A stretch of DNA of 64,000 bases from Pseudomonas sp. B33.4 (GCF_034555375.1 NZ_CP140706.1:2037001-2101000); one strand, 5' to 3'; shown: positions 10,345 to 64,000, counted from the first letter of the stretch. Translations and numbers: made by a program. Notes: generated by a model from the letters alone, not told the origin.

Positions 10345-11649
10345 TCAGCGCTGATGCACCAAAGCACCCGCCGCATACGTCTGCTGCACCGTGCGGTCAT
10401 CTCCCAGTGTCATCAACACAAACAATGTCTCGGCAATGTTGTTGGCCTGCTTCAAACGATAGCTCAGCAGCGGCGTAGCGTTGTAATCGAGCACCAGGAA
10501 GTCGGCGTCGGAACCCGGTTGCAGGTTACCGATCTTGTCTTCCAGACGCAGCGCCCGCGCGCCACCCAGCGTCGCCAGGTACAGCGACTTGAATGGGCTC
10601 AGTCGCGCACCTTGCAGTTGCATCACCTTGTACGCTTCGTTCAGCGTCTGCAGCAGCGAGAAACTGGTGCCGCCGCCGACGTCAGTGCCCAGACCGACAT
10701 TCAGCTTGTGCTTCTCGGCCATCGGCAGGTTGAACAGCCCGCTGCCGAGGAACAGGTTCGAGGTCGGGCAGAACGAGATCGCCGAGCCGGTTTCTGCCAG
10801 GCGCGCGCATTCGTCGTCGCACAGGTGCACGCCGTGAGCGAATACCGAGCGCTCGCCGAGCAGTTGGTAGTGATCGTAAACGTCGAGGTAGCCCTTGCGC
10901 TCCGGGAACAGCTCCTTGACCCACTCGATTTCCTTGAGGTTCTCGCTGATGTGGGTCTGCATGTACAGATCCGGGTATTCGGTCAGCAGTTGCCCGGCGA
11001 GGGTCAGTTGTTCCGGAGTGCTGGTCGGCGCGAAGCGCGGGGTCACTGCGTAGTGCAAACGGCCCTTGCCGTGCCAGCGCTCGATCAGCGCCTTGCTTTC
11101 GACGTAGCTGGATTCGGCGGTATCGGTCAGATAGTCCGGTGCGTTGCGGTCCATCATCACCTTGCCGGCGATCATCCGCAGGTCGAGCTGCTCGGCCTTT
11201 TCGAAGAACGAGTTCACCGACTGCGGGTGCACGCTGCCGAACACCAGCGCGGTGGTGGTGCCGTTACGTAGCAATTCCTTGATGAAGATGTCCGCGACCT
11301 CGTCGGCGTGGGCCTTGTCGCCGAACTGGCTTTCGCACGGAAAGGTATAGGTGTTGAGCCAGTCGAGCAGTTGTTCACCGTAGGCACCGACCATGCCGGT
11401 TTGCGGCAGGTGGATGTGGGTGTCGATGAAGCCCGGGGTGATCAGCGCGTCTTGGTAATGCTCGATTTCGATGTCCGCCGGCAGCGTCGGCAGCAAATCA
11501 CTGGCGTGGCCGAGGGCGCTGATCTTGCCGCCATCGACCACCAGCAGGCCATCCTCGAAATACTCGTAGGAGGCTTCGATGCCGACTTCGGCGGGGTCGG
11601 CGATGCTGTGCAGGATGGCGGCGCGGTAGGCTTTGCGAGTCAGAGGCAT
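10345..11649 (-). CDS. guaD: Guanine deaminase
   Basis: The 434-residue amidohydrolase converts guanine to xanthine, feeding the xanthine dehydrogenase encoded just upstream. Metal-ligand motifs are visible: PGFIDTHIHLPQTG (HxH), a central THISENLKEI, HGVHL, and the C-terminal GTDVGGGTS with the metal-binding aspartate. FCPTSNLFLGSG is also characteristic of guanine deaminases. The length is normal for the bacterial/eukaryotic GuaD type. The start at 11649 lies 14 bases after the xdhC stop, so the gene is the last member of the xdhABC-guaD operon. A terminator follows. Confidence 0.95.
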   Translation of the reverse strand: MPLTRKAYRAAILHSIADPAEVGIEASYEYFEDGLLVVDGGKISALGHASDLLPTLPADIEIEHYQDALITPGFIDTHIHLPQTGMVGAYGEQLLDWLNTYTFPCESQFGDKAHADEVADIFIKELLRNGTTTALVFGSVHPQSVNSFFEKAEQLDLRMIAGKVMMDRNAPDYLTDTAESSYVESKALIERWHGKGRLHYAVTPRFAPTSTPEQLTLAGQLLTEYPDLYMQTHISENLKEIEWVKELFPERKGYLDVYDHYQLLGERSVFAHGVHLCDDECARLAETGSAISFCPTSNLFLGSGLFNLPMAEKHKLNVGLGTDVGGGTSFSLLQTLNEAYKVMQLQGARLSPFKSLYLATLGGARALRLEDKIGNLQPGSDADFLVLDYNATPLLSYRLKQANNIAETLFVLMTLGDDRTVQQTYAAGALVHQR

Positions 11650-11662
11650 GAGGGTTCTCTAA

Positions 11663-12520
11663 TCAGTTTGAGGCTTTGAGTTTGGTCGCCTGACTGCGCC
11701 GCGAAACCGGCAGCAGTTTGGCAATCGGTTCGGCGCTGGCGGTCTGCTGGCCGAAGTTGGCGTTATAGGTGGCGATGATTTCGCCGGCGATGGAGATGGC
11801 AATTTCCACAGGCAGTTTGCCTTTGACTTCGCCGATGCCCATCGGGCAGCGCATGCGTTGCACGACGCCGCTGTCGAAGCCGCGATCACGCAAACGGTGT
11901 TCGAACTTGGCGCGTTTTGTCTTTGAACCAATCAGGCCGAAGTACGCGAAGTCGTTGCGCTTGAGAATCGCGGCAGTGAGTTCAAGGTCGAGCTGATGGT
12001 TGTGGGTCATGACGATGCAGTAACTGCCGGCGGGCAGCTCATCGATTTCATCCACGGGCTCTTCGGCGACGATTTTACGCACGCCGTGGGGCATCTGTTC
12101 GGGGAATTCGGCCTCGCGCGAATCGATCCAGCGCACCCGGCAGGGCAGGCTGGCGAGCAGCGGCACCAAAGCTCGGCCGACGTGACCGGCACCGAACACG
12201 GCGATTTGCGCCTGCACCTGGCCCATCGGTTCGAACAGCAATACGGTGGCGCCACCGCAGCACTGGCCCAGGCTGGCGCCGAGGCTGAAGCGCTCCAGAT
12301 GGGTGTCCTGCTTGCCGCTGGCGAGCATCTCGCGGGCGATCTGCATGGCTTTGTATTCCAGATGCCCGCCACCGATGGTGTCGAAACTCTGCTTGGCGCT
12401 GATGACCATTTTCGAGCCGGCGTTGCGTGGCGTCGAGCCGAGTTCTTCGATGATCGTCACCAGAACGCAGGGTTCGCCCTGGTTCTGCAGGTCGGCGAGG
12501 GCGTCGATCCAGTTGTACAT
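11663..12520 (-). CDS. xdhC: Xanthine dehydrogenase accessory protein XdhC
   Basis: The 285-residue protein binds and delivers sulfurated molybdenum cofactor to xanthine dehydrogenase. The N-terminal XdhC/CoxI domain begins MYNWIDALADLQNQGEPCVL with the conserved VTIIEELGSTPRNAG. The C-terminal part has a Rossmann-like segment (IAVFGAGHVGRALVPLLA) and YFGLIGSKTKRAKFEHRL. It lies between xdhB and guaD on the same strand. About 117 bases separate it from xdhB, and these contain a REP doublet. The family length is normal. Confidence 0.94.
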   Translation of the reverse strand: MYNWIDALADLQNQGEPCVLVTIIEELGSTPRNAGSKMVISAKQSFDTIGGGHLEYKAMQIAREMLASGKQDTHLERFSLGASLGQCCGGATVLLFEPMGQVQAQIAVFGAGHVGRALVPLLASLPCRVRWIDSREAEFPEQMPHGVRKIVAEEPVDEIDELPAGSYCIVMTHNHQLDLELTAAILKRNDFAYFGLIGSKTKRAKFEHRLRDRGFDSGVVQRMRCPMGIGEVKGKLPVEIAISIAGEIIATYNANFGQQTASAEPIAKLLPVSRRSQATKLKASN

Positions 12521-52249: not shown

Positions 52250-52487
52250 CGTGTCCCTGTCACTGAAAAGCAGTGATCGGGTTTGGTAGCCCGCTTCGAA
52301 ACCGTATGGCGTCACCGTATGCAGTCCCTTTTTGGGGGCTCAGATTTTTATGGTGGGCATGCGTGGGGCTCATTCGTGAGCGCCGGGTTTCCCGTTTCGA
52401 CCGGTCTACCAACCCACGTATGGCCACCACCCACTCGTTTGGTAGCGAGGGTGATGGCTCCTAATATTCGAAACTGGAGTTACACCT
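52250..52487 (+). ncRNA. Structured leader upstream of the DUF6124-type gene
   Basis: The 240 bases contain four clear hairpins: TCACTG/CAGTGA (52260-52276), CGGG/CCCG around 52278-52293, GCTCA/TGAGC at about 52368-52382, and CGGG/CCCG near 52383-52394. A long-range inverted pair GGGTTTGGTAG (52279-52289) and CTACCAACCC (52409-52418) closes them into one domain. The GTTTGGTAGC motif recurs at 52438. The 5' edge and the RNA status are inferences. It ends at the ribosome-binding site region (GGAGTT) of the next gene. Confidence 0.5.
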
Positions 52488-56576: not shown

Positions 56577-57548
56577 ATGCCCAAAGCCATCCACGTACTC
56601 GCGTTCGCCAACATGCAGATCCTCGACGTCACCGGGCCCTTGCAGGTGTTTGCCTCGGCCAATGACCTCGCCCGTCAGCGCGGCTTGCCGATGCCTTACG
56701 CGCCGAGCGTGATCGCCTGCGGCGGCGGGGCGGTGATGTCGTCGGCGGGTTTGGCGGTGTTGGCCGAGCCGTTGCCCGAAGCGCCCAGCGACACCTTGAT
56801 CATCGCCGGTGGCTGGGGCATTTATCCGGCGGCTGAAGATGTGTTGTTGGTGGATTGGGTGCGCGAACACGCCGCCAAATGTCGACGGGTAGCCTCGGTC
56901 TGCACCGGCGCGTTTCTGTTGGCCGCGAGTGGCTGGCTCGACGGCCGCCGCGTGGTCACCCACTGGACCCGCTGCGAACAACTGGCGCAGCAACATCCGA
57001 ATTTGCACGTCGAGGCCAATCCGATTTTCATTAATGACGGCCCGGTGTGGACGTCGGCGGGTGTCACCGCCGGCATCGATCTGGCGTTGGCGATGGTTGA
57101 AGAAGATCTGGGCAGCGACATCGCCCTGGACGTCGCCCGGCATCTTGTGGTGTTTCTCAAACGTCCGGGCGGACAGTCGCAGTTCAGCGTGACCCTGTCG
57201 TTGCAAAATCAGGGCAATCGCTTTGATGAGTTGCACGCGTGGATCGCCGAAAATCTTACCTGCGACCTCGGCATTCCGACCCTCGCCGAGCAGGCGGGCA
57301 TGAGCGAACGCAGTTTCGTCCGCCACTACCGAGCCGACACGGGGCAGACCCCGGCGCGAGCGATCGAACTGATCCGCGTCGAGACGGCGCGGCGCCTGCT
57401 CAGCGACACTGGCCTGCCAGTCAAACGCATCGCGGCCAATTGCGGGTTTGGTAGCGAAGAAACGCTACGGCGCAGTTTCCTGCGCGCCATCGGGGTGACG
57501 CCGCAGGCGTATCGGGAGCGGTTTTCGGTCACTGTGGCAGCAGATTAG
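56577..57548 (+). CDS. GlxA-family AraC-type regulator
   Basis: The 323-residue protein joins an N-terminal DJ-1/PfpI domain (about 1-185; ASVCTGAFLLAASGWLDGRR has the nucleophile elbow with Cys) to a C-terminal AraC HTH pair (about 215-315; LAEQAGMSERSFVRHYRADT and RIAANCGFGSEETLRRSFLR). It is divergent from inhA with an 89-base gap and probably controls it, possibly by sensing an isonitrile-related ligand; the target is an inference. The start is at 56577 (MPKAIHVLAFANMQIL). Confidence 0.87.
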   Translation: MPKAIHVLAFANMQILDVTGPLQVFASANDLARQRGLPMPYAPSVIACGGGAVMSSAGLAVLAEPLPEAPSDTLIIAGGWGIYPAAEDVLLVDWVREHAAKCRRVASVCTGAFLLAASGWLDGRRVVTHWTRCEQLAQQHPNLHVEANPIFINDGPVWTSAGVTAGIDLALAMVEEDLGSDIALDVARHLVVFLKRPGGQSQFSVTLSLQNQGNRFDELHAWIAENLTCDLGIPTLAEQAGMSERSFVRHYRADTGQTPARAIELIRVETARRLLSDTGLPVKRIAANCGFGSEETLRRSFLRAIGVTPQAYRERFSVTVAAD

Positions 57549-57572
57549 ACCGCGAGGGGAGGCGAGTCGGAA

Positions 57573-57601
57573 AAGCGTCATGCCGTTACGGCATGACGCT
57601 T
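57573..57601. terminator. Perfect 13-bp palindrome between GlxA-like gene and the RADAR operon
   Basis: AAGCGTCATGCCG and CGGCATGACGCTT flank a TTA loop. It lies 25 bases after the regulator stop and 45 bases after it comes the end of the SLATT gene, so it separates convergent units. There is no T run, so it is a terminator candidate only. It could instead be a protein-binding or recombination site. Confidence 0.5.
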
Positions 57602-57645
57602 GCTCTGCGGAAACAGGGCGTTCAGTACTTGGCGGTAATGCGAAA

Positions 57646-58287
57646 TCAAACAGGGTCCTTCGAGGCGTCGGACTTGGTTTGCGAGTTTTGCCCAATCAGG
57701 TTTTTCAGCTCCTGCATGTCTTCCACTACAGCGATGCCCCATACGGCAGTTTCGGCCATAACGATCTCATGAGCACGGTCGACGAATGTTTGCAGAAGTG
57801 CCTCGACTTCCTTCAGTTGGTGTGGCTGAAGTTGTTCTTGAGGGTTATTGGCTAGCCACAACGACCACTGCACTTGGAAGTTGGTCATCAGGTGCTTTAG
57901 TTCCAGGCGCGCGATCACATAGCGAATATGGCCTCGGGTGTAGCCAAAAGAGCGATCTGCCAACATTGCCGCACCTGCGATTGCGAGGGCGGGATAGCCC
58001 CACCCAACCAGGCCTTTGAAGCAGTCATTGATTCCGCCTAACAAAGGGGCAAGCACACCGATTGTGCCGAACACGATGGCAGTCCAACGCGTTATGGTTG
58101 CTCTTGAACTATGTCTTTTACCTACTCTGGCGTAATAGTCGACATTGTTATGAATGAGCGTGTTCATTTCTTCGACGATGCGTTTGAGAGAAGCTTTGTC
58201 TTGTTTCGCTCCGTGGATCGATTTAAGCGCGTCAAGGAATGCCTTGAAGGGCTCTGGTTTCTGCTGATCGTTTTCTGGCGCTGGCAT
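57646..58287 (-). CDS. SLATT-like two-TM accessory protein of RADAR (RdrD-type)
   Basis: The 213-residue protein has two membrane helices (about 66-85 and 92-112). They are preceded by a helical N-terminus with NNVDYYARVGKRHSSRATIT and followed by YTRGHIRYVIARLELKHLMT and a long cytosolic helical region (about 115-205). This is the layout of the SLATT (SMODS/SLOG-associated two-TM) effectors. It is last in the rdrA-rdrB operon, 62 bases downstream of rdrB. AAGGA precedes the ATG. RADAR loci with a SLATT protein, rather than Csx27, are a known variant. The assignment rests on topology, context and the YYARVGKRH-like segment, so a distinct two-TM family cannot be excluded. Confidence 0.72.
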   Translation of the reverse strand: MPAPENDQQKPEPFKAFLDALKSIHGAKQDKASLKRIVEEMNTLIHNNVDYYARVGKRHSSRATITRWTAIVFGTIGVLAPLLGGINDCFKGLVGWGYPALAIAGAAMLADRSFGYTRGHIRYVIARLELKHLMTNFQVQWSLWLANNPQEQLQPHQLKEVEALLQTFVDRAHEIVMAETAVWGIAVVEDMQELKNLIGQNSQTKSDASKDPV

Positions 58288-58349
58288 TTATAGTCCTTAC
58301 TGTCCCTGTTGATCGTTTTTGTACGCGGGTCAAACGTTGATGAGCCGGC

Positions 58350-60995
58350 CTATCCCCACAGCGATTCATGTTTTTGATGAAACTGCTCAAGACCGAACAG
58401 GCGAATGCGTTCCAGCCATTTCTCCGCCTGAGTGCGAGAGACATCATGCGTCTGTGCCGCTTCTCGCAGTAGTGCAAACTCGGTGCGTAATGTGGTTGGC
58501 ATGATGCCGGGATCATCGGTGTTGATGCAGAACTTGATGGGGCCGCGCCGCAAACCGAACAGATTGTTTTTGGCACCCTTGAGCAACGTGCTTTCGTCGG
58601 GTGGATACCATCGAAAAACGGGATGTTCGCTGTGACATTTCAAGCGGGCGATATAAACGTTCGATGTCGGGTTGGCTTCAATAACCAACCCAAGTCGGTC
58701 GTACCTGTCCAACAGCCAGTCTTGAAGTGCGTGCATGAACAAAACTTCGCTCGAAGTTTCGGTGACGGTAATCAGGTTCAAATCGGCTTCCGTCCGATAG
58801 TGGCTGTCGAATTCATGATCCGATTGGCGAATTCGAACCTTGCAAGGCACTTGTTGTTCATGATTTATGGGCGGCCAAAGCGCGTCATTCAAACCATTTC
58901 GCCGGTTCGAAAGTGCTCGCCATCGCTGCAGATAGAGTTTGACGGGGTGGGTAGAGTTTTTTTCGGCGTATTGCTCGAACTCCTGTCGGTCAGGCACGGC
59001 AATGTTGAATTTGGCGTCTTCAAAAGGGGCAATTTTGTTCCGCGTCACATAGTGATAGCAGTTGCGCCGCATCCGCCATGCGTCAAAAAGCGCTTCCATT
59101 GTCGGGTGAGATTGTTCTTTACCTCGCCAGGAAAGGTAGGGAATGAGTCGACGCAACGTTCGTTCGAGTTTCGGAACAATCTGTGCGGCCAGGTCCAGGT
59201 GGGGACTCATTTCGCAAGCGTGATGCCAGGCCCAGACTAGGTTGTCGACATGTTCATCGAGTGGCAGCACGGCTTCACCGTGCCGTTCCAGCCACATTTT
59301 CGGTTCTACGCCGATGGCAAGGGCATGGCCGAGTCGATCCCCCGAACGCATACCACAGAACACCACCGTTTCATCGATATGGCGCATTCCCGAGAGAGGG
59401 TGTGCGTAATCTTCCCCGGCATGAACACTCAGGTGCAAACCCGTCGTCGGCGCCGCTAGCAAAGGTTTGCATTGCAGCCCCTGACGCAGCCATCTGATAG
59501 CGGGCGCGAACACTTCGGTTTTTACCGCATTTTCGTCACCTGCGACGTCCAGTCCTCTAATCCATCGGGCTGGCTGCAAACGACCGGACCACAGTGATGA
59601 AGTGTTGATGAGTTCTTCACGTTCCCAGGAGGCGTTACTGGAAAGCTTACTTTCGAGCTTGCTCGCCTCCAGCCAGACATTTGAAGGATTGTCACGGCTG
59701 AGTTCGTCACGAATGAGATGAATGCAAAAGTGCCAGCGCTCAAAGGAATCGCGCATGGCCAGTTGTTTAGCCAAGGGTACTTGCCGAAGTTTCGGAGCGG
59801 CCTCAAGACCGATGGCCTTGCCCAAGTGGCTCAACCACTGAATAACCGCTTGAGGTGTAAACAGTTGATGGACAACCTTGATCTCCGCCACATCGCCATC
59901 GCCGTGAAAGATCCGTCGCGCGGCATCGGTGTACTGTTGATGCCAACCGAGATTACGACGTGCGTGATTGTTGTAGACGTCGACGAAACGGGTTAACCCC
60001 TGACCGTCCATCAATAGTTGGCGGCGCATATGAGTCAACGAGTTGAGCAGGAAGAACAGGGCCATGCGCAGTTCGCTGCTGCATTCAGGATCCTGATACC
60101 GGGTCCAGCACCAGATGACGAACCATAGCCAGGCCTTGCCGGTGTCCCCTTTGACCAGGGCACGGGCAATTTTTTGTCGTTGCCAGTGCGGGTGTAGAAC
60201 ATCTGCCGGTTCCATTTGTTTTTCGGCAAGCCATCGCCAGTTGATGGAAATCGGCGGCTCTATTTTCCAGCCGCTACCCAAGGTCTCCGTGCAGATTTTT
60301 CGAATAGCCTGGTTTTCAAGAGGGGTGGTGCCAATATCCATCAGCAGCCTTTGCGCCAATCGCTGCAAGGATGGAAGGACCTTGAGTGCCGGTTCGTTTG
60401 CCAACTCTTTGAGCGGGGCAGTCAATCCCGACATCAACACCAGTCCGTCGTAATGAACACCCCCCAAGTGCACATGATTTTCCGCAAAGGCTTTGCCTGT
60501 CTGCGGCCGGGGACTGAAGAACGGTTGCTGAGCCTCGACGATGCGCAACAAATCACTGCAACCCAGCCTCGGTTGTTCTCTCAAACGTTTGGCGATCCGC
60601 CAACCGGCCAGCAACGCCGGATCGATGCGCGCTGCGCAACGTACATACGCCTGCACACGGTCATCACGGTATTGGATGACGTCACCGTTTTCGAAAAACA
60701 GCTGATCGAACAAGCCATCAAGCATGTCCAGACGCCCGCTCTGTGACTCCAGAAAGATATTGCTGGGCCACAGGGTCTTGAGCGCCAGATCCATGTCATT
60801 GATTCGAAACCGGCGCGGATAGTCGGCATCGAGATCAAGCCGCAGATTGCGCAGGCAGGTCTCATGGAACGAGTCGTGCCGGGTCGGATCTCCGAGGTCC
60901 GGTGCGGACAAAAGTCGTGCGCGCAGAGTCTGCGCCAGCGATGTGCTGGAGAAGCAGGTGGCGCTGGCGAGTTCGAATAGCGTTTGGTCGAGCAT
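58350..60995 (-). CDS. rdrB: RADAR adenosine deaminase-like protein RdrB
   Basis: The 881-residue protein carries every hallmark of the adenosine deaminase fold in a large scaffold. The zinc HxH is in ENHVHLGG (His174, His176). HAGED starts at His525 with the catalytic glutamate Glu528. GH in RLGHA is near 557. The ADA-like NPTSN is at 775-779. NTDDPG at 825-830 has the two aspartates. Classical ADA is 330-350 residues, so the long N-terminal and internal insertions fit RdrB, which forms a large shell. In described systems RADAR converts A to I on RNA or ATP to ITP during infection. Which nucleotide is used here cannot be read. The start overlaps the rdrA stop by one base (TGATG). Confidence 0.88.
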   Translation of the reverse strand: MLDQTLFELASATCFSSTSLAQTLRARLLSAPDLGDPTRHDSFHETCLRNLRLDLDADYPRRFRINDMDLALKTLWPSNIFLESQSGRLDMLDGLFDQLFFENGDVIQYRDDRVQAYVRCAARIDPALLAGWRIAKRLREQPRLGCSDLLRIVEAQQPFFSPRPQTGKAFAENHVHLGGVHYDGLVLMSGLTAPLKELANEPALKVLPSLQRLAQRLLMDIGTTPLENQAIRKICTETLGSGWKIEPPISINWRWLAEKQMEPADVLHPHWQRQKIARALVKGDTGKAWLWFVIWCWTRYQDPECSSELRMALFFLLNSLTHMRRQLLMDGQGLTRFVDVYNNHARRNLGWHQQYTDAARRIFHGDGDVAEIKVVHQLFTPQAVIQWLSHLGKAIGLEAAPKLRQVPLAKQLAMRDSFERWHFCIHLIRDELSRDNPSNVWLEASKLESKLSSNASWEREELINTSSLWSGRLQPARWIRGLDVAGDENAVKTEVFAPAIRWLRQGLQCKPLLAAPTTGLHLSVHAGEDYAHPLSGMRHIDETVVFCGMRSGDRLGHALAIGVEPKMWLERHGEAVLPLDEHVDNLVWAWHHACEMSPHLDLAAQIVPKLERTLRRLIPYLSWRGKEQSHPTMEALFDAWRMRRNCYHYVTRNKIAPFEDAKFNIAVPDRQEFEQYAEKNSTHPVKLYLQRWRALSNRRNGLNDALWPPINHEQQVPCKVRIRQSDHEFDSHYRTEADLNLITVTETSSEVLFMHALQDWLLDRYDRLGLVIEANPTSNVYIARLKCHSEHPVFRWYPPDESTLLKGAKNNLFGLRRGPIKFCINTDDPGIMPTTLRTEFALLREAAQTHDVSRTQAEKWLERIRLFGLEQFHQKHESLWG

Positions 60996-63748
60996 CAGGC
61001 GGAACTCGCGCCAGAATTATTTCGGACGAGAGTGTAATGGTTATGCATGACTTGAAGATGGCGCTCAGGGGTGCCGCTAATAACTTTCGCGCCGTTTATT
61101 ATTCTGTGGAACTCTAGAGCCTGTGCTTTTTCACAGCGTGCAAGAACAGCGTTTAAAAAATTAAGCATCGCGGTATTGTCGAGTGTTTTTATCGTTTTGA
61201 CGTTTAGAGTTATGCCTTGTTCTTTGGCCGTGACGTTGATGGTCTGTCTCAGTCTTGTTGATGCGGGTTCCACCGTCGGGGAATTGGCGGTTTTGTTATT
61301 AGTATTGTTGTTTTTTGGTTTGTATTTGTCGTTGTTGAGTAGCTCGAGTAGTAGTTTTCGCAGTGGGTGTGACTCCAGTGCGTAAGTATATGATCCGGTT
61401 TTGAAGTTGTGATGCTGTCCTCGTTCACTGATTTTTTGCAGGAAAGGCAATATATTTTGTCGGTAATGCATGTTTTGTTCGAAGTTGTGGCTGGAGCTCG
61501 ACATGTTGATGTAGGCAATGATTCTCGGTAGTCCAAAGGTTTCACCTTTTTCAAAGCTGCCAAAAGCAGACCACACGGAATTAAACATCCGCATGCCCGA
61601 GTCGATGATCTCCAATAGGGAATAGTTGGCCGGCTTCTTGGTAGGCGTAGAAATGCTTATTTGATTGAACGCTTTAGTCATGACGTTATAAATCAACCAA
61701 CTGTGCGGAACTTGAATGTTGTTCTGTCGGCGCCAGTTGTTTATTTCAGCGGTGAAGGCGGATATCGTATCCTTGGATTTCTGATCGCCCTTAAGTGCCT
61801 CTTCTGTGCTTACTTCCTCTTTGGACTCATCTTCAGACGCTTCGAAGGCTTCCGAGAGGTTCAGTGTCTTGGTATGGGCCAGCGACGCCATAGAGTGGAA
61901 TGGAGGGCGGTTAATGATGTCGACGATTTCGACTTCTGAAATATCTCGAACCAGGCTGGCGACCACAAGTTCAAAAATGCGGCCGTGAAATACAAGATTT
62001 GCACGCTGGTTAGGCGAAAAGAAGCTCCAGTGCACTAACAGTTGTCGTGCAAACTCGGCTTTGCCGTGCAGAGGCTCAGGGGTAAGTGCGTTCAAGGACC
62101 AACTTGAGGATGGTTTTACTGGAATTCTTTGACCTTTTTCTGGCACTGGGAAAGGCAAAATCGTTGACTCCGGAATTCGCTCCATCCAGGCTTGTGGAAC
62201 TACCGACTTATAGTCTTCGGACCACGATTGTTTGACACCGGTGATGCTTTCAAAGTTTTCGTATTTTTTAACGTTCTGTTCCAAAGGTTGGAACATGTCA
62301 TAGGCCAATACAGACGCCTTTTTGCTTTCGTTATTTGCGGTTAGCCATTTTTCATTGGTGAAAGCAGTGAAGTAAGCAGCCCCACCTTTGCGGTGATACT
62401 GGAAATAATCCGAAATGACCTTGAACCATTCCTGAATATAGGGGAGGAAGTCACTCTTGAGTGTGTTGGGTAGGTCAGCAGTACTTGCCCCCAAGGCCCG
62501 ATAGGCGCGCTCTTTACCCGTTCTCGCGTCGCGTCGATGGGGTTCGCTGCTGAAGGTGGCCTTGTTGAAGGCCTCTTCAAAGTCTTGCACAGCCATGGCA
62601 ACGTCCAAGGGCATGAAAAGCAGACGCTTGAGCATGGTCGGAAGTATCTGAAGCGACGTGGTATTCAGGTCGAGGTTCAGGTGCTCTTGGAGTGTCGGAA
62701 TTAGATGCTTGCATCCATTAATGAACTGAGTCATTTCCCGTACAGTCTGCAATGGAAGTTCCAGGCGACTGTTTTCTTCTCCGTTCACACGCTCGTTTAA
62801 CAGGGCGTTGAGCCAATGTTGGAGGGTGGCGAGCGGGAACAGCTTGGAATTATTGTTTGTCAGTATGATTTTCTGGTTTTGTAGGTAGCTGGTCAGCGCG
62901 GGTAATTTAATCCTGCGAGGCAATGGAAGAATTTTACGTTGATATTCTTCTGCCAGATCCTTTGCTCTGGTTTCGGCGTTTTTTTCTATGGCCGATTTTT
63001 TATGCGTCAGCCTTCCGTGAAATTCTCGCCAGATAACTTCGTCATACAGGCTTAGATCGCCGCTGATCAGGGGCACGACAAAAGGTGATGTGAGGTACTT
63101 GCGAACGACTTCTATGTTTTCAAACGCTAGTTGCAGGGAGGTGTCGACATCATCAATAGGTAGAACAACAAGCCTTCTTCCTGTCAGCGTCAACGTCTTT
63201 TTCAGCAGGATGTGAACATGTTCTGCGAGAGACTGGTTTCCCATGAATGCTCGAAGTTTATCCAAGCCATATTGCTCTTTCTGTTTCTGGATACCCTCCA
63301 GTGCTGCGCCCAATTTATGCAGCTGCTCGTAAAAGGCTTCGGCTTCTTTCTCACGGTTTTCCAGAGCCCCGCGAACGGTCTTGTCTCGCATCAGCGCCGC
63401 CACAATCACGTTGAGCAGAAGGTCATCGCCGTTTTCCAGCAGAGTCGGATCCACTGGCTTGAGGATCAGCAGATTCTTGTTATCTTTGAGATACGTCGTG
63501 AGATTGACCAGAACTGAACTTTTGCCAGTGCCTCGACCGCCGTCGATCAGGATCGCTTCATGGCTTCGATAATCATCAAGGTCGTCAGACTGACTGTCGA
63601 GAGAGGGTGTTTTTCCCAGACTGTGGTTCAGGTGCTCGACAATTTTCTTATAGACGTCCTGCGCCAACAGGTTTTTTGGTGTCGGCTGATGAGCCTGTTC
63701 GCCTTGATCGATTGGCAGTTCGATTTCGATGCCGGGATTCTCGCCCAT
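60995..63748 (-). CDS. rdrA: RADAR P-loop ATPase RdrA
   Basis: The 917-residue ATPase has Walker A GGRGTGKSSVL at 70-80 (lysine 76) and Walker B VVLPIDDVD near 194-202. The sequence is weakly like KAP or STAND ATPases. The region about 820-845 is asparagine-rich (KYKPKNNNTNNKTANSPTV), and the DNA is AT-richer than its surroundings, suggesting transfer. RdrA forms an ATP-binding ring that works with RdrB in the RADAR complex. It is first in the operon. AAGGA precedes the ATG at 63748, and its stop overlaps the rdrB start. Identity comes from size, motifs and operon; the sequence alone is only moderately diagnostic. Confidence 0.82.
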   Translation of the reverse strand: MGENPGIEIELPIDQGEQAHQPTPKNLLAQDVYKKIVEHLNHSLGKTPSLDSQSDDLDDYRSHEAILIDGGRGTGKSSVLVNLTTYLKDNKNLLILKPVDPTLLENGDDLLLNVIVAALMRDKTVRGALENREKEAEAFYEQLHKLGAALEGIQKQKEQYGLDKLRAFMGNQSLAEHVHILLKKTLTLTGRRLVVLPIDDVDTSLQLAFENIEVVRKYLTSPFVVPLISGDLSLYDEVIWREFHGRLTHKKSAIEKNAETRAKDLAEEYQRKILPLPRRIKLPALTSYLQNQKIILTNNNSKLFPLATLQHWLNALLNERVNGEENSRLELPLQTVREMTQFINGCKHLIPTLQEHLNLDLNTTSLQILPTMLKRLLFMPLDVAMAVQDFEEAFNKATFSSEPHRRDARTGKERAYRALGASTADLPNTLKSDFLPYIQEWFKVISDYFQYHRKGGAAYFTAFTNEKWLTANNESKKASVLAYDMFQPLEQNVKKYENFESITGVKQSWSEDYKSVVPQAWMERIPESTILPFPVPEKGQRIPVKPSSSWSLNALTPEPLHGKAEFARQLLVHWSFFSPNQRANLVFHGRIFELVVASLVRDISEVEIVDIINRPPFHSMASLAHTKTLNLSEAFEASEDESKEEVSTEEALKGDQKSKDTISAFTAEINNWRRQNNIQVPHSWLIYNVMTKAFNQISISTPTKKPANYSLLEIIDSGMRMFNSVWSAFGSFEKGETFGLPRIIAYINMSSSSHNFEQNMHYRQNILPFLQKISERGQHHNFKTGSYTYALESHPLRKLLLELLNNDKYKPKNNNTNNKTANSPTVEPASTRLRQTINVTAKEQGITLNVKTIKTLDNTAMLNFLNAVLARCEKAQALEFHRIINGAKVISGTPERHLQVMHNHYTLVRNNSGASSA

Positions 63749-64000
63749 GTAAACCGTTCCTTGTCATGCGCATAGCGCCTGCCCGACGGTGGGAAGGCGA
63801 AGATTTGATTGAATGGATCCAAGAAGAGTAGCTATGTGCTACTACAAATGCCAGTCAAACACTTGCATGGCTATGCGTTATCAAGAGGCCTTCATTTACG
63901 TTGCAACAGATCCCAATGCCCTGAGTTTTTCCCTTCGGCGCCTCCTTGGGTATATTGTGCGCGATACCCCCAGCACCCGCCGCTCGTAAGGGCCGCTGAA
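63749..64000. other. Region upstream of rdrA to the window edge
   Basis: No complete gene is seen. The first 150 bases upstream of rdrA should carry its promoter, but no strong consensus is visible. A TATATT motif lies at 63953-63958, and no reading frame here was tied to a known family. Any gene reaching the edge would be partial. Confidence 0.3.

Follow-up and report, generated by a model that had tools for sequence, protein, structure and literature searches.

The 64,000-nucleotide stretch of the Pseudomonas sp. B33.4 chromosome analysed here (the window, positions 2037001–2101000 of the 6,604,192-base single-contig chromosome) carries, on its minus strand at 57646–63748, an operon of three intact genes in the order rdrA, rdrB and SLATT. 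The first two almost certainly form the core of a RADAR anti-phage system, and the chromosome holds one RdrB and one RdrA match. The third encodes a SLATT_2-domain protein, for which its family and position slightly favour a role as effector over that of brake, tether or bystander. That the operon as a whole is RADAR equipped with a membrane effector arm is a proposition on which we are evenly poised.

The RADAR core

Both enzymes exceed the cut-offs of the curated RADAR families (NF041743 for RdrA, NF041744 for RdrB; Table 1), and PADLOC agrees, with 688 bits for RdrA and 799 bits for RdrB on the models PDLC02216 and PDLC02219, and not on the second RdrA/RdrB pair. Among solved structures, RADAR chains alone match significantly, in part-length alignments with E values of 2e-20 for RdrB and 4e-13 for RdrA. 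Pfam is weak for these enzymes: A_deaminase gives 23.0 bits, below its cut-off of 27, and KAP_NTPase gives 21.5 against 20. An ordinary metabolic deaminase was considered and rejected, since the hidden Markov models (HMMs) of such enzymes score RdrB at 12.7–28.0 bits against cut-offs of 217–459. An initial annotation, made from the DNA alone, had proposed RADAR, a system of known type, from three minus-strand genes encoding proteins of 917 and 881 amino acids and a small protein; the frames lie where it placed them, and the identification holds, the grouping of RdrB with metabolic deaminases that would have refuted it being contradicted by these scores.

The adenosine deaminase motifs that it named can all be located in RdrB (HVHL at 174, HAGED at 525, GH at 556, NPTSN at 775 and NTDDPG at 825). 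An alignment of 30 RdrB-like proteins, of which 29 were chosen out of 78 found, shows no change at H174, H176, H525, E528, H557, D827 or D828. Counted along the alignment to the solved chain, H525, E528 and H557 correspond to H498, E501 and H530 of E. coli RdrB, which are zinc and catalytic residues (PMC9994260). RdrA is a P-loop ATPase, as had been stated, with a Walker A motif GGRGTGKS at 70–77 (K76) and an IDDVD motif at 198–202 (D199, D200). Its residues 1–300 are 89–97% identical between the window and the related loci L002 (Pseudomonas sp. CROZ-RG-20F-R04-15) or L003, whereas residues 826–900 are just 48–49% identical, making the C-terminus the fastest-changing part. This C-terminus has been suggested as a phage sensor (PMC9994260).

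RdrA is described as an ATPase that enhances RdrB, which converts adenosine and deoxyadenosine triphosphate (ATP, dATP) to the inosine nucleotides ITP and dITP in infection (PMC9994260). Because the relevant residues are conserved, we predict RdrA-enhanced (d)ITP production for the window copy. In a rival reading, RdrB acts mainly on RNA, by A-to-I editing, and SLATT is secondary. Such editing was what the earliest publication proposed, for C. rodentium RADAR (PMC7699616, PMC9994260), and the window's PADLOC pair is PDLC02216/PDLC02219, so that its RdrB may differ from the chemically measured E. coli protein. We nevertheless hold RNA editing to be quite improbable. For both C. rodentium and E. 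coli RADAR, the A-to-G signal is weak or absent while ITP and dITP accumulate, and hairpin RNA was not edited in vitro (PMC9994260); moreover, the active-site residues of RdrB match mononucleotide deaminases.

Operon architecture and the SLATT gene

The rdrA stop codon and the rdrB start codon overlap by one base (TGATG), the junction noted initially. A gap of 62 base pairs (bp) separates rdrB from SLATT, with AAGGA ahead of the SLATT ATG; AAGGA also precedes rdrA. In 200 mononucleotide shuffles of 57601–63800, the longest stop-free run was 222 codons, so the 881- and 917-codon frames are not due to chance. The 213-codon SLATT frame fails this test by itself and is accepted because of its relatives, its SLATT domain scores and its ratio of nonsynonymous to synonymous divergence (dN/dS), 0.089–0.161. 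With values of 0.055–0.068 for rdrB and 0.083–0.091 for rdrA, all three genes are, by this measure, under purifying selection.

The operon probably ends at the hairpin of 57575–57599, opposite the convergent araC-type gene. The terminator scan demands five T in eight, and this hairpin, followed by TTTT, is therefore unlisted; overall, the promoter and terminator scan gave fewer matches than in shuffles and is uninformative. No RNA element reached its Rfam gathering score inside 57646–63748. About 80 bp ahead of rdrA, at 63827–63843, lies a 6-bp inverted repeat with a 5-base loop (AGTAGC/GCTACT). L002 conserves this possible operator, and L003 has it with a single mismatch.

The third protein was called SLATT-like from the outset, and it scores 93 bits on NF033633 (cut-off 40) and 47.8 bits on Pfam SLATT_2, PF18183 (cut-off 25). 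The label “SLATT variant” is correct in the broad sense but does not extend to an RdrD equivalog, which we rejected: the RdrD model NF041745 gives no match to the window protein at E ≤ 1, and four relatives reach 12.1–14.2 bits against a cut-off of 230, positive controls scoring 279 and 260 bits. A short “DRxFGYTR” core is common to SLATT and RdrD. PADLOC offers no fitting model; its matches to SLATT, Cas11e at 14.0 bits and RT_UG22 at 11.3 bits, look like chance.

Accessory genes at RADAR loci

We compared 28 RdrB loci by open reading frame list, hydropathy count and HMMs. Left out were L061 (rdrB broken, with RdrD), L109 (the same plasmid as L014), L115 (a fragment) and three plasmid matches, H4–H6. 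A SLATT_2 gene lies 3′ of rdrB in four loci: the window, L002, L003 and L004 of Undibacterium (72.7 bits). RdrD holds this place in one (L106) and a HAM1–SIR2 pair in another (L006, Enterovibrio). Four related Vibrionaceae loci (L111–L114) have instead a membrane protein of 227–241 residues encoded 7 bp ahead of rdrA; these proteins are weakly SLATT-like (SLATT_1 at 21.5 and 19.1 bits in two of them, against a cut-off of 41) and align to RdrD across 184 columns with a probability of 92%. SLATT-type or other membrane genes thus stand beside rdrAB in 9/28 loci. The remaining loci were scored as “none”, meaning no short membrane gene or HAM1–SIR2 pair adjoining rdrAB; contig ends truncate L004 and L080, and rdrA is absent from L060.

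In the RdrB tree, which carries a long-branch warning elsewhere, the four SLATT_2 loci form one clade (97/96), with SLATT after rdrB in all of them and Undibacterium inside at 0.50 RdrB identity; the four loci with an upstream membrane protein form another (100/100); and L106 is the sister of L006 (100/99), their RdrB proteins being 77% identical.

We propose the SLATT protein as a membrane effector because of its family and of what occupies the same position elsewhere. SLATT proteins have been predicted to be membrane effectors (PMC7159879, PMC12632851, PMC12483538) and, more precisely, nucleotide-responsive pores (PMC7159879), and DRT10 defence requires its own SLATT gene (PMC12632851). Were SLATT a bystander, sharing the insertion but serving some other function, its separate AAGGA site 62 bp from rdrB and its divergence, faster than that of rdrB (72–76% against 87% identity), would be expected. 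However, strand, order and a spacing of 16–63 bp are constant in the four loci of two genera, the gene is under purifying selection, and the operon-ending hairpin lies after it; we give this explanation little credence.

A brake or membrane tether, holding RdrA–RdrB at the membrane or inactive until infection, deserves more attention, although we think it unlikely. The short, separate SLATT gene always accompanies rdrAB (4/4 loci), and no SLATT copy without RADAR was found in 398 genomes of the genus, its own included. A brake would be useful, since RdrB overexpression is toxic without phage (PMC9994260), and in a model proposed for DRT10 SLATT toxicity is restrained in uninfected cells (PMC12632851). 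Yet RADAR manages without one in the loci where no accessory was found, and a brake leaves unexplained the HAM1–SIR2 pair at the sister of an RdrD locus. The effector is favoured over the brake because the accessory gene varies among the 28 loci.

The Enterovibrio locus

In L006, the HAM1-family gene follows rdrB after a gap of 303 bp, and the SIR2 gene overlaps it on the same strand as rdrB; sister locus L106 has RdrD in the position of the pair. A Vibrio plasmid carries a deaminase–HAM1–SIR2 trio, with which the L006 pair shares 57% (HAM1) and 75% (SIR2) protein identity, and the same trio occurs in E. coli PSJ-07. The HAM1–SIR2 stretch matches 80/5426 E. coli genomes, 79 of them across at least 80%. 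Among plasmid records matching the HAM1 protein, 95/106 are from Pantoea. We read the trio as Kongming and the L006 pair as KomB–KomC, with the deaminase taken as KomA, the HAM1 protein as KomB and the SIR2 protein as KomC. In that system, KomB is bound by dITP and thereby activates KomC, with depletion of NAD+ (PMC12948488, PMC12774641). Thus, a likely reader of dITP is encoded right behind a RADAR that makes dITP, in the place where L106 encodes a membrane protein. Among the open-licence PMC papers listed, none was found that joins RADAR with Kongming, or that places HAM1 together with a deaminase and SIR2 in phage defence. A search of the window genome with the L006 SIR2 protein came back empty at 1e-5, a result that by itself shows little.

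Alternatively, the pair may be an independent system that shares the defence island and says nothing about accessory genes; to us this reading is as likely as not. The pair was seen in a single locus of the 28, at some distance from rdrB, with no RdrD remnant found between rdrB and the HAM1 gene; L006 and L106 are at different sites, because their common DNA is confined to rdrA–rdrB. In the one Pantoea stewartii plasmid examined (L083:5001-6352), HAM1 and SIR2 genes occur with no adjacent deaminase. On the other hand, HAM1 is the next gene after rdrB, on the same strand; probed with the deaminase of the trio, the Enterovibrio genome yields only proteins of 24–30% identity, much like a relative without the pair (24–27%); and the reported activator of the pair, dITP, is a RADAR product.

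Proposed mechanism

We propose that the variable C-terminus of RdrA would sense a phage feature and that RdrA would then turn RdrB on, the resulting inosine nucleotides stopping phage replication. SLATT, presumably located in the inner membrane, would permeabilise it after activation of the system, as a second route to abortive infection. That an inosine nucleotide, and not contact with RdrA or RdrB, would trigger SLATT is doubtful.

It is tempting to go further and regard RADAR as a signalling machine, in which RdrB-made (d)ITP is a second messenger for exchangeable effectors at the accessory position, although we judge this a shade less probable still. The reader would be a dITP-gated KomB–KomC NADase in Enterovibrio, a SLATT_2 pore in Pseudomonas and Undibacterium, and the SLATT-like RdrD in E. 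coli and the Vibrionaceae RdrD loci. If true, RADAR and Kongming would join as one family of inosine-signal immunity. The discussion of PMC9994260 calls unknown the cause of abortive infection after the rise in ITP and dITP, and among the papers listed by our literature search we found no test of RADAR membrane partners. The natural rdrAB–SLATT and rdrAB–HAM1–SIR2 loci are ready constructs for finding out if inosine nucleotides act as signals in addition to poisoning.

Several points weigh against a SLATT effector. The effector role is a prediction from family and position. SLATT is dispensable for RADAR as such, because in 18/28 loci no accessory was detected and two-gene RADAR systems protect by themselves (PMC9994260). 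The HAM1–SIR2 argument comes from one locus with a 303-bp gap, and the Pantoea plasmid has the pair without a deaminase beside it. The SLATT–RdrD alignment covers 38 columns only, at a probability of 56%. Of the two transmembrane segments initially claimed, the first is clear in 19-residue hydropathy windows (1.80 around residue 68), but the second is weak (only 1.44 around residue 92) and would rest on the family match. The predicted structures are of low confidence, with a predicted local distance difference test score (pLDDT) of 52 from 7 alignment rows and 66 from 10, the latter model having helices at 31–86 and 88–114. Finally, SLATT has no PDB match at E ≤ 0.001 and no separate ligand domain.

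Table 1. Features of the operon, its surroundings and the loci compared with it (window positions unless a locus is named).
Feature	Position	Strand	Description
rdrA	60995..63748	minus	917-aa AAA+ ATPase; NF041743 730 bits (cut-off 600), Walker motifs, block identity
rdrB	58350..60995	minus	881-aa adenosine deaminase; NF041744 956 bits (cut-off 800), invariant active-site residues
SLATT	57646..58287	minus	213-aa SLATT_2-domain protein; NF033633, PF18183
hairpin	57575..57599	minus	11-bp stem, 3-base loop, then TTTT on the minus strand; read from the sequence
inserted segment (approximate)	57546..63898		blastn against RADAR-free L050, L051, L053, L056
araC-type regulator	56577..57548	plus	DJ-1/PfpI and helix-turn-helix by Pfam; host gene, outside the system
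Enterovibrio sp. ZSDZ35 locus (NZ_JAJUBB010000004.1)	L006:8001-12424		rdrB; HAM1 11082-11636; SIR2 11636-12424
upstream membrane proteins	L111:2670-3353; L112:12128-12847; L113:2878-3603; L114:11222-11920		

Insertion site and history of the alleles

RADAR lies at the same site, beside the araC-type gene, in the window, L002 and L003, and the window's flanking proteins are 94–99.8% identical to their L002 counterparts. In stretches from ten relatives, RADAR is absent beside this gene, which is itself kept at the site in all ten. Alignment to RADAR-free relatives ends near 57545 and restarts near 63899; as judged from these breaks, the operon is an insertion adjoining the araC-type gene. On the other side of RADAR, L002 has an intact 300-residue hydrolase gene, of which just ~146 bp of the L050 copy align in the window. 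Far-side neighbours are recognisable in 8/10 relatives: the hydrolase gene adjoins the site in G016, G011, G005, G010 and G019, is present with different genes behind it in G017, and in G021 and G002 the araC-type gene is followed by a gene for a 166-residue protein after 30 bp and 80 bp; in G006 and G023 nothing beyond the araC and DJ-1 genes matches. The araC-type gene adjoining the site in the close relative G019 (L056:3051-4018) is divided between two frames.

GC content at third codon positions is 0.54–0.61 in the operon against 0.72–0.78 in four neighbour genes. Synonymous divergence between the window and L002 is 1.11–1.66 for the operon genes against 0.14–0.58 for seven flanking genes, and between the window and L003 1.47–1.89 against 0.31–0.79 for six, values above 1 being near saturation. 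The window alleles are thus far older than the genes around them, in keeping with allele-for-allele replacement at a fixed site. Between L002 and L003, rdrA (1.23) and SLATT (1.32) diverge likewise, but rdrB, at 0.56, is within the 0.28–0.74 of the flanks, which speaks against a uniform replacement rule. Separate exchange of SLATT between alleles is hinted at by identities and left unresolved by trees, and we do not claim it.

About 5 kb from the operon, at 52346–52434 on the plus strand, an Rfam C4 antisense RNA scores 76 bits, where the gathering score is 45. This RNA family is known from P1/P7-type phages.

Distribution

RdrB-like matches occur in 9/398 genomes of the genus, own included, two of them above the family cut-off, and in 3/369 genomes of the class, again counting its own; the two class matches besides it are short, in frames of 327 and 335 codons, as for ordinary deaminases. 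The family of Enterovibrio gave matches in 12/329 genomes (1e-15). The window rdrB DNA matches 2/5426 E. coli genomes, a count that is no prevalence estimate, as distant copies escape. Both E. coli loci look damaged: in one, rdrB is annotated in three pieces (L061:3650-9861), and in the other an IS1 element, with no annotated rdrA, lies ahead of rdrB (L060:5722-9270). RdrB has zero matches in 50,697 phage records, and in pattern scans of IMG/VR, which reach no further than close relatives, neither SLATT nor RdrB had a confirmed match. Seven plasmid records match RdrB, none across more than 80% of its length, and SLATT has zero matches among plasmid records.

Comparison with known systems

In RADAR, an RdrA heptamer and an RdrB dodecamer assemble into a giant complex. 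The window operon is like curated RADAR (NF041743/NF041744) in the cut-offs exceeded, in gene order and in active-site residues; it differs in forming a distinct clade, in its distant matches to the solved chains and in its SLATT_2 third gene. RADAR and its variants were described by Gao et al. 2020 (via PMC7699616, PMC11676413). RADAR with RdrD (NF041745) is similar in having a membrane protein with the DRxFGYTR core directly after rdrB, but RdrD is longer (242–245 residues), with about four hydrophobic segments. By these comparisons, the core system is a known one and its SLATT partner is outside the curated RdrD family.

The SLATT_2 domain is shared with DRT10, CBASS-like and nucleoside triphosphate-dependent conflict systems, where the sources cited above predict a membrane effector; in the DRT10 and CBASS-like systems, its partner is a reverse transcriptase or a cyclase, whereas in the window it is RADAR. 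In Kongming, as in RADAR, a deaminase produces an inosine nucleotide during infection. The deaminase of the trio, however, has 326 residues, an ordinary size, against the 881 of the window RdrB, and the HAM1–SIR2 pair resembling that of the trio adjoins one rdrAB pair, that of Enterovibrio, and not the window's.

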